A stretch of DNA of 20,820 nt from the IMG/VR virus record IMGVR_UViG_3300000227_000034, positions 1 to 20,820 of that record, one strand, 5' to 3'. Shown here one piece after another: positions 7,111 through 11,799 of this stretch. The position numbers and the translations under genes are program-made. The stretch comes from a virus. Each line of letters starts with the position of its first letter. The stretch's first letter is position 1. The notes under the pieces were generated by a model that saw only the letters and a program-made list of their open reading frames with translations, ran no database searches and had not been told where the DNA came from.

Positions 7111-7863
7111 ATGGCTTACTTTTCCGGACAAGGCCGCGTCTACATCGGCGCACGTGATGAACTCGGCAACCCTGCTGGGCTGACCTTCGTCGGCAACGTG
7201 CCCGAATTGAAGGTGTCGCTGTCGGTGGACACCATCGAGCACCAGGAAGCGCAGTCGGGCCAGCGCCTCACCGACCTGCAGCTCATCAAGACCAAGAAAG
7301 GCGAGTTCGCCTGCACGCTGGAAGAGCTGATCGCCACCAACCTGGCGCTCGCGCTCTACGGCACCACGACCACGATCACCCCCGGCACGGTGACTGGCGA
7401 GCTGCTGCCCAACCCGGTCACGCCGGGCAGTCTGTATCCCTTGGCCATGCAAAACGTGTCCGCCGTGCAGATCCAGGACTCGGGTGCCACGCCCAAGACG
7501 CTCCCGGCCAGCCAGTACAGCGTCAATGCCAAGCACGGTTCACTGGTGGTGCTCGATGCCACGTCGGGCGGCCCGTACACCGAGCCGTTCACCGTCGATT
7601 ACGCCTATGGCGCGGCGCAGAGCACGGCGATGTTCACCCAGCCACTGCCCGAGCGCTGGATTCGCTTCGAGGGGCTCAACACCGCCGACGGCAACCGCGA
7701 GGTGGTGATTGACCTGTACCGCGTGGCCATTAACCCGGCGAAGGAACTCTCGATCATCACGGACGAGCTGCTGAAGTTCGAGCTGTCGGGCCAGGTACTG
7801 GCGGATCTGACCAAGCCGGTGGGCGGTGATCTCGGTCAGTTCGGCCGCCTGGTGCTGCTGTGA
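7111..7863 (+). CDS. Major tail tube protein
   Basis: Forms the stacked hexameric rings of the tail tube; 250 residues compared with 246 for lambda gpV. Visible features are the N-terminal FSGQGRVYIGARDELGNP and FVGNVPELKVSLSVDTIEHQ strands, LIKTKKGEFACTLEEL, an alanine/leucine helix (NLALALYG), a loop region rich in Gly/Thr/Pro, and a C-terminal RWIRFEGLNTADGNREVVIDL strand pair followed by RVAINPAKELSII and the final beta segment. These match tail tube proteins whose loops face the lumen. AAGGAGACTGAAC precedes the ATG. The stop overlaps the chaperone start by one base. Confidence 0.9.
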   Translation: MAYFSGQGRVYIGARDELGNPAGLTFVGNVPELKVSLSVDTIEHQEAQSGQRLTDLQLIKTKKGEFACTLEELIATNLALALYGTTTTITPGTVTGELLPNPVTPGSLYPLAMQNVSAVQIQDSGATPKTLPASQYSVNAKHGSLVVLDATSGGPYTEPFTVDYAYGAAQSTAMFTQPLPERWIRFEGLNTADGNREVVIDLYRVAINPAKELSIITDELLKFELSGQVLADLTKPVGGDLGQFGRLVLL

Positions 7864-8264
7864 TGGACGGCTTCAAGACCTTCCCCCCTGAGCCTGTGGT
7901 CGTGACGCTGTCCGGCACCGCGCTGGAACTGACGCCGATCCGGCTGGGCGAGTTGCCACGGCTGCTGGCCGTGGTGCGCCCGCTGGCCGAGGAAATCACC
8001 AGCGATCCGGACTGGATGGCGCTGCTGGGACTGCACGGCGATGCCGTGCTGGATTTGCTGGCGATCACCACCCGGCGTGAACGCGCGTGGATCAACGACC
8101 TTCAGCTTGCGGACGCCGTGCAACTGGCCGCCGCCGTGTTCGAGGTGAACGCGGATTTTTTCGTGGTGCACGTCGTCCCGGCGATTCAGGGCGCGGCCCA
8201 GCGACTCGCGCCGACGCTGCGCCGACTTCCGACCTCGGCTGGGACAGTGCCGTCGCCCGCCTGA
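7863..8264 (+). CDS. Tail assembly chaperone (gpG-like)
   Basis: Helical 133-residue protein in the position of lambda gpG (140), between tail tube and tape measure genes. G coats the tape measure during tail assembly and leaves the finished particle. The ATG at 7863 overlaps the tube stop by one base; a GTG immediately before it is less likely. Features are a beta start (PEPVVVTLSGTALELTPIRLGEL) and helices LPRLLAVVRPLAEEI, DAVLDLLAITTRRERAWI and LADAVQLAAAVFEVNADFF. A T TTT TTC heptamer at 8156-8162 can shift ribosomes to the -1 frame and give a longer GT product. Without the shift the protein continues for 33 residues to 8264. Confidence 0.85.
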   Translation: MDGFKTFPPEPVVVTLSGTALELTPIRLGELPRLLAVVRPLAEEITSDPDWMALLGLHGDAVLDLLAITTRRERAWINDLQLADAVQLAAAVFEVNADFFVVHVVPAIQGAAQRLAPTLRRLPTSAGTVPSPA

Positions 8265-8449
8265 TCCGCGCCGGGCACCGGCTGGGCGACGTGATGGCCT
8301 ACACGCTCACTCAGGCGCAAGCCTTTCTGGATGCCGACGGACAGATCGAACGGCAGCAACTTGCCGAGCTGCTCGGCATTCATGCGGTGGCAGCCCAGGG
8401 CGAGAAGCGTGGCATCGAACAACTGCAACGCGATCTGCTCAAGGACTGA
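7863..8449 (+). CDS. Frameshifted tail assembly chaperone GT (-1 product)
   Basis: Predicted fusion of the chaperone with an overlapping -1 frame. Shifting at T TTT TTC (8156-8162) would join the first 100 residues of G to 95 residues read from 8162 to the TGA at 8447-8449, about 195 residues in all. The downstream frame has clear protein character from DLGWDSAVARLIRAGHRLGD onward, followed by VMAYTLTQAQAFLDADGQIE and the helical end RGIEQLQRDLLKD. That arrangement resembles the T extensions that recruit tail tube protein in lambda-like phages. About 20 residues just after the slip are Arg/Gly-rich and look like dual-coded linker. An alternative is a separate 51-residue gene from ATG 8294. 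The frameshift is inferred, not proved. Confidence 0.72.
8156..8162 (+). other. Candidate -1 ribosomal slippery site, T TTT TTC
   Basis: Read in the gpG frame the bases group as GAT TTT TTC GTG, giving the heptamer T TTT TTC, an X XXY YYZ sequence in exactly the register needed for simultaneous slippage. It lies about 100 bases before the G stop and leads into the frame that ends at 8449. No other heptamer of this type in the correct register was found between here and the G stop. A stimulatory structure downstream was not clearly identified. Confidence 0.7.
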
Positions 8450-8452
8450 CTC

Positions 8453-9094
8453 ATGCGTCTCTCGCTCACCACCACCGGCTTGCTGGACCCGGGCCAGTTG
8501 GCGGCGTGGAACGCCGAGCGGCGTCGCGCCATCCACACCGCTGTCGCCAAGGGCATGCAATCGGGCGGGCGTGAAGTGCGTGATGCGGCGCGATCCGAGA
8601 TGCGCAGTGCCTTCACCGTCAAGCGCAACAGATTCATCTCCTCGATGGGCGTGAAGGTGTTCGACAAGAAGCCCGAACTGCTGCCCGCCTTGCTGGTGGG
8701 CAGCAAGATTCCTTGGCTCGGTCTGCATGAAAAAGGCGGCACGGTGAGCGGCAATTTGCTGATCCCGCTGCTGCCCGGGCGCATCGGCCCCAAGCGTTTC
8801 AAGGCGGTCATTGACGGCCTGATGCGCTCGGGCAATGCCTTCTTCATCGAGAAGAACGGTCGCGTGCTGCTGATGGCCGAGAACATCAAAGAGAACGCCG
8901 GGCAGCTGGGCCGCTTCAAGCGTGCCGAGCGTGGCCGTACCGGCGCGAAACAGATCAAGCGTGGTCAGGAAATTCCCATCGCCGTACTGGTCAAGCGCGT
9001 CGATCTCAAACGACGACTGAATCTGGCGGGTGGCGTGCAACGCGCACTACCTGCCTTGGCGCGGGCGATTCAACAAGAACTGGACAAAGTCTGA
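8453..9094 (+). CDS. Minor tail / tail-completion-like protein (gpZ- or DUF6441-like)
   Basis: A 213-residue basic protein between the chaperone and the tape measure. Helical N-terminus (LAAWNAERRRAIHTAVAKGM and an R-x-x-A-x-x-E-M-R segment), then FTVKRNRFISSMGVKVFDKK, a VGSKIPWLGLHEKGGTV / NLLIPLLPG region, an AFFIEKNGRVLLMAENIKEN segment, and a C-terminal EIPIAVLVKRVDLKRRL followed by an alanine-rich helix ending IQQELDKV. The layout of basic helices, 'F-I--NGR--L', 'IPIAV', then a long C-terminal helix is like lambda gpZ, which completes the tail end. It also resembles phage proteins grouped as DUF6441. Both links are from memory. The start follows CAAGGACTGACTC, and the stop overlaps the tape measure start. 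Confidence 0.68.
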   Translation: MRLSLTTTGLLDPGQLAAWNAERRRAIHTAVAKGMQSGGREVRDAARSEMRSAFTVKRNRFISSMGVKVFDKKPELLPALLVGSKIPWLGLHEKGGTVSGNLLIPLLPGRIGPKRFKAVIDGLMRSGNAFFIEKNGRVLLMAENIKENAGQLGRFKRAERGRTGAKQIKRGQEIPIAVLVKRVDLKRRLNLAGGVQRALPALARAIQQELDKV

Positions 9095-11799
9095 TGGCAA
9101 GCAATCGTGCCCAAATCCTGATCACCGCCGTCGACCAGACCAAGACCGCTTTCGATTCGATCAAGCGCGGGCTGGGCGGCCTCACCGATACGGCCAAGAG
9201 CGTCAACGGCGTGCTGGCCAACCTCGGCGTGGGCGTTTCGCTGGCGGGCATCGGGGCCATGATCAAGTCCAGCATCGATTCGGCGGATGCGCTGGACGAG
9301 ATGGCGCAGCGTACCGGCATTGCCGTCGAATCGCTGTCGCTGCTGGTGCCTGCTGCCGATTTGTCGGCGGTGTCCACCGAGAAGTTCGAAGCTGGGCTCA
9401 AGAAGTTGGCCACCGGCATGCTGGAGGCCGCGACCGGCTCGGAGGCATCGGCACAGAACTTCGAAGCGCTGGGTGTGGCGGTCCAGAACCAGGATGGCAC
9501 CCTACGCGATAGCGAACAGGTATTGCTGGATCTGGCCGACCGCTTCCAGGCCATGCCCGATGGCGCTGAGAAAGCGGCGCTGGCGGTCGATATCTTCGGC
9601 AAAGCCGGTGCGGAAATGATCCCCTTCCTCAATCAAGGGCGGGAGGGCATTGGTGCGCTGAAGCAGGAGGCGGCTGAACTCGGGTTGCAGCTGTCCGCTG
9701 ACACCGCCGCACAAGCGGGCAACTTCAACGATGCGCTCGACAAGCTGAAACTGGCCACCACCAGCATCGGCAACCAGATCATCGCGTCCTTGCTGCCCGC
9801 CCTGAACGATATGGCCGGTGGCATGGTCGAGTCGGCCAAGCAAGGCGGCACGCTGCGCGTGATCCTGGATGGCGTGGTGCTGGTGCTCAAGACCCTGGCC
9901 CTCGGTGCCGCCACCGTCGGCAAGGCCTTCATCGCCTTGGGCGAGGCCATTGGCGCAGGTGTCGCGGCGGCGGTCGAGGCGCTCAAGGGCAACACCGACG
10001 GGGCCAAGGCCATCATTGCCGACCTCAAAGGCAATCTGGTCAAACGGCTGGATGAACTGGCGTCCTTCCGTGACAGCCTGTTCGACCCCAAGCCCATCGA
10101 GGTCAAGGCACCCAAGATCCAGGCCGATCCGGAACTGCTTCAACGCCTGACCAAGCCCAAGGCCGCCAAGCCTGCGCAGGACACGGCCGGCGCGCAAACC
10201 ACGCTGATGAAAGCGCAGTTGGACGCCGAGTTCGCCCTGCTCAAAGACGGTCTGACCCGGCAACAAACTGCGCTGGATGCTGCACTCGAAGACCGTCTGG
10301 TTTCGGTGCGCGACTACTACACGCAGAAAACGGCCATCGAGCAGCACGAGGTCGATGCCGAGATTGCCCGCAAGCAGCAGGAGCTGGCCCGTAGTCAGCA
10401 AGTCGCCAATACCGGCAAATCGGAAAACGACCGCCTGCGTGCCAAGGCCGAAGTGGCCAAGGCGGAAGCCGACCTGATCACGCTCAACAACCGGCGCACG
10501 GACATCGAGCAGGCCAATGCCCGCAAGGCGGCACAAGCCGAGCGCGAATTGGCCGACACCTTGGCGCAGGCACGTCAGGAACTGGCGCAGATCACCGGCA
10601 CCGCCACGGATGCCGACCGGCAAGCAGCCATCGAGCGCAGCTACCGCGATCTGCGGGCACGTCTCGCTGCAGAAAGTGATGCCGACGGCGTGTCGCTCGT
10701 CGACCGACTGATCAACGTGAAGGCGGCGCAGGCCAATCTGGCGGCGCTGGAGGCCCAATGGCGGCAGGTCACCGAGCGTCTGCGTAATGCGCAGGAGGCC
10801 ATTCAGACCCAGCAGCAGGCCGGGTTGCTCACCGAAGCGCAGGCGCGTCAGCAGATCGTGGCCCTGCAACAGCAATCGGCTACCGAGATGGAGCGCTTGT
10901 TGCCGACCATGCAGCAAGCCGCGCAGGCCATCGGGCCAGATGCGGTGATCCGCGTGCAGGCTTGGCGCAACGAGCTGGATCGCACCAAGCTCACGGTCGA
11001 TGAAATGGCTCCGCTGTGGAACCAATTGGGCGAGAGTTTTGGCGGCGCGCTCAACGCCATGCTCACCGGCGCGCAGACCTGGCGCAGTGCCTTGGCGAGC
11101 ATCTTCCAGCAGGTGGCCGATGCCTTCCTGCAGCAAATCGTGATCCAGCCGTTCCAGCAGTGGATCGCCATGCAGGCGCGGATGCTGGCGCTCAAGCTCG
11201 GTTTCATCCAGCAAGAGCAGACCGTCGATGCGGCGGCCAGCGCCGCCAAGGTCGCCCAAAAGACCACCGAAACTACCGCCGTGGTGTCGATGGATGCGGC
11301 CAAGGCGGGAGCCGGGGCGGCGGCGTCGCAGGCTTCCATTCCCTACGTTGGCCCGGCACTCGCAGTGGCCGCGATGGTAGCCATGGTCGCTGCGGTCATG
11401 GCGCTCTTGGGTGGCATCAAGAAGTTCGCGGGCGGCGGTCTGGTCTCCGGGCCGGGCAGCGCCACCTCGGATTCGATCCCGGCGCGTCTGTCCGCAGGCG
11501 AGTACGTGGTGCGGGCGGCCGCCGTGCGCCAGGTCGGTGTGGCCTTCCTCGATTCGCTCAACGGCTTGTCGGCAGGCCCACGTTTCAAGGGTGGCGAACT
11601 GGCCTTCGCAGCGGGCGGGCTGGTACCGGAGGTGAAAGTGCCGCCCGCGCAGCCGCAGATGAATCAGGCGGTGCGCATCGTCAACGCGGTCGATCCGGGC
11701 GTGACCCACGACCACCTGCAGTCGCCTGCCGGAGAGAAAGTCATCGTCAACATCATCGGGCGCAATGCACGGGCTATCCGTGCGGCGCTGCAAGGCTGA
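9094..11799 (+). CDS. Tail tape measure protein
   Basis: Long helical protein (901 residues; lambda gpH has 853) that sets tail length and occupies the tube lumen. The N-terminus starts with the usual beta/helix ASNRAQILITAVDQTKTAFD and a Gly/Ala-rich segment at about 40-65. A hydrophobic stretch lies at about 255-290 (VILDGVVLVLKTLALGAATV) and another at about 750-775 (PALAVAAMVAMVAAVMALLG), as in tape measures that insert into the host membrane. Residues 365-620 are Gln/Ala/Glu-rich and predicted to be coiled coil. The C-terminal FAGGGLVSGPG followed by SDSIPARLSAGEYVV is a hallmark of phage tape measure proteins. The ATG overlaps the previous stop. No peptidoglycan hydrolase motif was seen. 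Confidence 0.95.
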   Translation: MASNRAQILITAVDQTKTAFDSIKRGLGGLTDTAKSVNGVLANLGVGVSLAGIGAMIKSSIDSADALDEMAQRTGIAVESLSLLVPAADLSAVSTEKFEAGLKKLATGMLEAATGSEASAQNFEALGVAVQNQDGTLRDSEQVLLDLADRFQAMPDGAEKAALAVDIFGKAGAEMIPFLNQGREGIGALKQEAAELGLQLSADTAAQAGNFNDALDKLKLATTSIGNQIIASLLPALNDMAGGMVESAKQGGTLRVILDGVVLVLKTLALGAATVGKAFIALGEAIGAGVAAAVEALKGNTDGAKAIIADLKGNLVKRLDELASFRDSLFDPKPIEVKAPKIQADPELLQRLTKPKAAKPAQDTAGAQTTLMKAQLDAEFALLKDGLTRQQTALDAALEDRLVSVRDYYTQKTAIEQHEVDAEIARKQQELARSQQVANTGKSENDRLRAKAEVAKAEADLITLNNRRTDIEQANARKAAQAERELADTLAQARQELAQITGTATDADRQAAIERSYRDLRARLAAESDADGVSLVDRLINVKAAQANLAALEAQWRQVTERLRNAQEAIQTQQQAGLLTEAQARQQIVALQQQSATEMERLLPTMQQAAQAIGPDAVIRVQAWRNELDRTKLTVDEMAPLWNQLGESFGGALNAMLTGAQTWRSALASIFQQVADAFLQQIVIQPFQQWIAMQARMLALKLGFIQQEQTVDAAASAAKVAQKTTETTAVVSMDAAKAGAGAAASQASIPYVGPALAVAAMVAMVAAVMALLGGIKKFAGGGLVSGPGSATSDSIPARLSAGEYVVRAAAVRQVGVAFLDSLNGLSAGPRFKGGELAFAAGGLVPEVKVPPAQPQMNQAVRIVNAVDPGVTHDHLQSPAGEKVIVNIIGRNARAIRAALQG

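Follow-up and report, generated by a model that had tools for sequence, protein, structure and literature searches.

The window, by which we mean the whole stretch of viral DNA analysed here (20,820 nt, positions 1 to 20,820 of IMG/VR record IMGVR_UViG_3300000227_000034), very probably carries a tail assembly chaperone gene of the lambda G/GT type that is expressed with programmed -1 ribosomal frameshifting, as judged from its sequence and from that of its homologues. The gene for the major tail tube protein, which has an Ig-like domain (7111-7863, plus strand; phrog_807, E-value 3.2e-83; NF052337, phage tail tube protein), is followed on the same strand by a G-like gene starting at ATG 7863 (7863-8264), whose zero-frame product of 133 aa matches phrog_1442, annotated as 'tail assembly chaperone' (E-value 4e-31). 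A T-like -1 extension of 95 aa (8162-8449, plus strand) matches phrog_13355 (E-value 4.7e-26). Further downstream lie a DUF6441 gene (8453-9094; Pfam PF20039, E-value 3.2e-95; phrog_6367, of unknown function) and, again on the plus strand, the tape-measure gene (9094-11799; phrog_13338 and many tape-measure PHROGs). G thus has the major tail protein gene on one side and the tape-measure gene on the other, as do chaperones of the lambda G/GT type, with one extra gene, that of DUF6441, separating T from the tape-measure gene. A search of NCBIfam returned no family for G or T.

The heptamer T TTT TTC (8156-8162, plus strand) stands in exact X XXY YYZ register with G, whose frame reads GCG GAT TTT TTC GTG at this place, as the initial annotation had proposed; 108 bases separate the start of the heptamer from the end of the G ORF, close to the distance of about 100 bases given there. 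The -1 frame contains no stop from 8081 up to the one whose last base is 8449, and the protein character that had been noticed in it is borne out by the conservation of T as a protein. The codons that follow the slip, from 8162 onward, are CGT GGT GCA and so on, and specify 95 residues that begin with RGARRPGDSG and end with LLKD. Together with the first 100 residues of G, they make up a predicted GT fusion of 195 aa (7863-8449, plus strand), which agrees with the size expected earlier. This fusion was aligned without a break through the junction to phrog_14432 (191 positions; query residues 50-193; E-value 6.5e-8), a family whose members may be continuous ORFs or annotated frameshift products. 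TTTTTTC occurs once in the window, both strands counted, where 0.76 copies are expected by chance; its occurrence alone is not significant, and it is its conservation that exceeds chance.

Searching viral contigs with G yielded 80 loci of 49-95% identity, all of which have an in-frame TTTTTTC or TTTTTTT together with an open -1 frame. The slip site lies 93-123 bases from the end of the G ORF across these loci, and the -1 extension comprises 90-121 aa in the G homologues, except that the one in L017 runs off the end of its contig. To avoid selecting on G, we also searched viral contigs and GTDB genomes with T alone as the query, in the form of both a single sequence and a profile. Six T followed by C or T was found in frame at 126 of the 127 loci selected in this way (45 of the 46 from GTDB genomes), a set that includes Stenotrophomonas phages Summit and DLP_5 and shares many contigs with the G-selected one. 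The match of L209, the sole locus lacking the heptamer, is confined to the last 33 residues of T, and this locus seems to be a degenerate short remnant. Thus, the comparison of homologues that had been recommended shows the heptamer and both frames kept together, and no homologue was seen that had lost the heptamer while keeping both frames.

The overlap from the slip site to the G stop (8163-8264, plus strand) shows the signs of dual coding, and the -1 ORF is under protein-level selection, including its part before the G stop. In line with the predicted suppression of synonymous change, the codon-level ratio of observed to expected synonymous changes amounts to 0.70 for the overlap and is close to zero at GAT98 and TTT99, which are present in 73 of 73 sequences and show no parsimony change on a tree whose total length is 8.7. 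By comparison, codons conserved in G upstream of codon 90 have undergone 3-9 changes where two-fold degenerate and 4-14 where four-fold degenerate, and background codon use, taken from the genes flanking the homologues, is 0.156 of Phe for TTT and 0.40-0.41 of Asp for GAT. Codon periodicity of the G frame is lost in the overlap, where the entropy at the third position minus that at the second is 0.25, versus 0.73-0.94 in upstream windows. G codon 126 shows all four letters at its second base and always T at its third, as it overlaps GGN TGG (Gly-Trp) in the -1 frame; the Trp at 8240-8242 is invariant. We also noted that GCG at codon 97 (8151-8153) and GTG at codon 101 (8163-8165) show only one synonymous change each in the 73 sequences, and these two near-frozen codons suggest that selection also acts on the codon context of the slip site.

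Several other explanations of these observations can be considered. The -1 extension might be a chance ORF and the heptamer just two Phe codons, since open frames abound in GC-rich DNA (the window has 131 ORFs of at least 60 aa), and since the heptamer is expected about once in a sequence of this length, as noted above. However, T is conserved as a protein, having eight invariant residues in 40 divergent sequences and variation at wobble positions in the T-only part, and TTT is found in 73 of 73 sequences versus 16% expected, so that the probability of a chance ORF is practically nil and this candidate was rejected on the grounds of conservation. Alternatively, RNA polymerase rather than the ribosome might slip on the run of six or seven T to yield a shifted message, as the run is invariant and homopolymers can cause transcriptional slippage. 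Yet six T is a short run for efficient transcriptional slippage in bacteria, and the GCG, GAG and GTG context is also frozen, which fits a translational signal; we thus consider slippage of the polymerase very unlikely.

It is highly improbable, too, that T is a separate small protein made from an internal start (GTG 8291 or ATG 8294, giving 51 aa, or GTG 8087) with no frameshifting. GTG or ATG codons are indeed present at these positions, and phrog_13355 (58 aa) covers T from about residue 42 only, suggesting that annotators call a stand-alone ORF. In the AlphaFold model of T, however, residues 1-22 are disordered and the chain is all helical from residue 23, with pLDDT of about 93-96 over residues 31-90, and GTG 8291 and ATG 8294 both fall within the helical domain, leaving the first T helix upstream of them. 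The overlap accordingly encodes the Arg/Gly linker that had been described, which is disordered in the model, followed by the beginning of the T helix. The Trp at 8240 is present in 73 of 73 sequences, and conserved Ala, Arg and Leu residues then precede the G stop, also upstream of the candidate starts. Moreover, ATG is found at 8294 in 52 of 73 sequences and a start codon at 8291 in 50 of 73, several lineages having neither, and a search for a separate T start in 40 representatives revealed no conserved start and no Shine-Dalgarno sequence near the G stop. In several homologues, the -1 frame has a stop 15 nt upstream of the heptamer, so that T cannot be started in them from a codon farther upstream such as GTG 8087. 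Since the Trp and a conserved helix precede any conserved start, the separate 51-residue protein from ATG 8294 that the initial annotation had considered cannot explain the conservation, and a separate protein of any kind leaves the conservation of the heptamer unexplained.

Programmed ribosomal frameshifting is thus the preferred reading, and we searched both sides of the heptamer for stimulators of the kind known from dnaX. GAGGT (8142-8146, plus strand) is a possible internal Shine-Dalgarno-like stimulator: its GAG, codon 94 of G, is found in 73 of 73 sequences with no parsimony change, and 10 nt lie between the end of GAGG and the heptamer, matching the spacing of about 10 nt of the Shine-Dalgarno-like sequence in dnaX-like signals. 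The duplex of GAGG with the anti-Shine-Dalgarno sequence has a predicted energy of about -7 kcal/mol, a value also reached by 10% of the other 30-mers of G. Bacterial -1 signals are known to use upstream stimulators of this type (PMC4066793), and GAGGT may be one of them. A dnaX-like signal also has a stable hairpin or pseudoknot a few nucleotides downstream; folding of the downstream RNA into nested secondary structures in the window, in 40 homologues and in an alignment gave nothing beyond shuffled sequences (z of 0.07 for the window and, on average, 0.22 for the 40 homologues). Likewise, no compensatory pairs were found by covariation analysis, the only consensus pairs being six around the heptamer itself, which show no compensatory change. 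Across this family, the recoding signal could be composed of the heptamer, the frozen GAGGT and the frozen codon context, GCG before and GTG after, with no downstream RNA structure, in which case the G:GT ratio would be set mainly by pairing to 16S rRNA; we put this forward tentatively, as being slightly short of an even chance. A Shine-Dalgarno-like stimulator with no hairpin was found in only two of 69 candidate clusters (PMC4066793), and the combination of a frozen upstream GAGGT with the lack of downstream structure is the only mildly new point in what is otherwise an ordinary though well supported mechanism confirming known biology.

From the register, the conservation, the dual coding and the gene order, we infer that expression would proceed as follows. 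Most ribosomes would terminate at 8264 and release the 133-aa G protein, while in a minority of them the two tRNAs, paired with TTT in the P site and TTC in the A site, would both shift back by one base within T TTT TTC and pair anew. The slipped ribosomes would go on from CGT GGT GCA in the -1 frame until the stop ending at 8449, giving GT, in which the first 100 residues of G would be joined to the Arg/Gly linker and the helical T domain. By analogy with lambda (PMC5009743), G would coat the tape-measure protein, the T domain would bring the tail tube protein to the tape measure, and GT would be made at a low ratio to G, with neither of the two expected in the mature virion. The predicted mechanism shares with the lambda system, reviewed in PMC5009743, both its logic and its position (G, a -1 heptamer near the 3' end, a T domain and then the tape measure), and differs in spacing: about 24 nt separate the lambda heptamer, G GGA AAG, from the end of its G ORF, versus 108 nt in the present phage. 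No sequence homology is detectable between lambda gpG and G (hhalign probability 0.2%), whereas phrog_1442, Pseudomonas phage D3112 and Summit link the present gene to chaperones already known to be of this type. Searches of solved structures by sequence and by fold returned nothing useful; the PDB gave no fold match, and the model of G is only moderately confident.

D3112, a Mu-like siphophage of P. aeruginosa with which we group PaMx73 as a presumed relative, has the identical T TTT TTC in its orf42. Its homology to the present genes is remote (hhalign probability 95.5% with the G profile and 87.5% with the T profile), and its gene order is alike (tail tube, G, T, tape measure). It differs from the present phage in that its proteins are highly diverged and in that it has neither GAGGT nor a gene between T and the tape measure. 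The likeness to PaMx73, a Mu-like phage of P. aeruginosa, lies in its published T TTT TTC heptamer (PMC4378225) rather than in a sequence comparison. In Summit and DLP_5, the site at the same place is TTTTTTT, within GAT TTT TTT, hence T7 and not T6C. Their tape measure chaperone has a 93-aa T extension, the Summit record annotates a frameshift product, and the G of Summit is homologous to ours (hhalign probability 95.5%). Unlike in the present phage, GAGGT is missing from these two and the tape-measure gene follows T directly. A T6 run is also used by P2, in which a -1 frameshift occurs at T6G in the equivalent tail genes, with T7G and T7C in P2-like relatives (PMC3931495); the P2 E/E+E' genes belong to a contractile-tail phage, and are compared here by site and gene role. 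In addition, U_UU.U_UU.C frameshifts above background in E. coli (PMC4066793). The initial annotation was thus right that the heptamer, T TTT TTC, is not the G GGA AAG of lambda, but the site is not unusual, given its publication for PaMx73 and the T6G, T7G and T7C sites of P2-like phages.

These results would settle how a widespread prophage family, found mostly in Proteobacteria, should be annotated; its T ORF stands in PHROGs only as a short family of unknown function. They would also widen the range of the G/GT device with T TTT TTC over a deep divergence, from Mu-like phages of Pseudomonas to phages of Stenotrophomonas and to many betaproteobacterial prophages. Among the INPHARED phages, tblastn gave no match for G and only four Stenotrophomonas phage records for T, and a search of plasmids found none. 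The DUF6441 gene is located directly 3' of T in nearly all homologues with enough flanking sequence, and is not at that place in D3112 and Summit. Because its position is so constant, a role in tail assembly is suggested for it.

The slip site itself shows some variation among the homologues. TTTTTTT replaces TTTTTTC, with both frames kept, in L009, L043, L066, L069, L081, L127 and L187, where the efficiency of slipping may differ from that at TTTTTTC. The only other in-frame heptamer among the G homologues is GGGGGGC, which occurs in L063 as a second site. In Thermomonas sp. S9 (L201), the run carries an additional T (GAT TTTTTTC) that would place G and T in a single frame, representing either a natural fusion or a homopolymer error of long-read sequencing.
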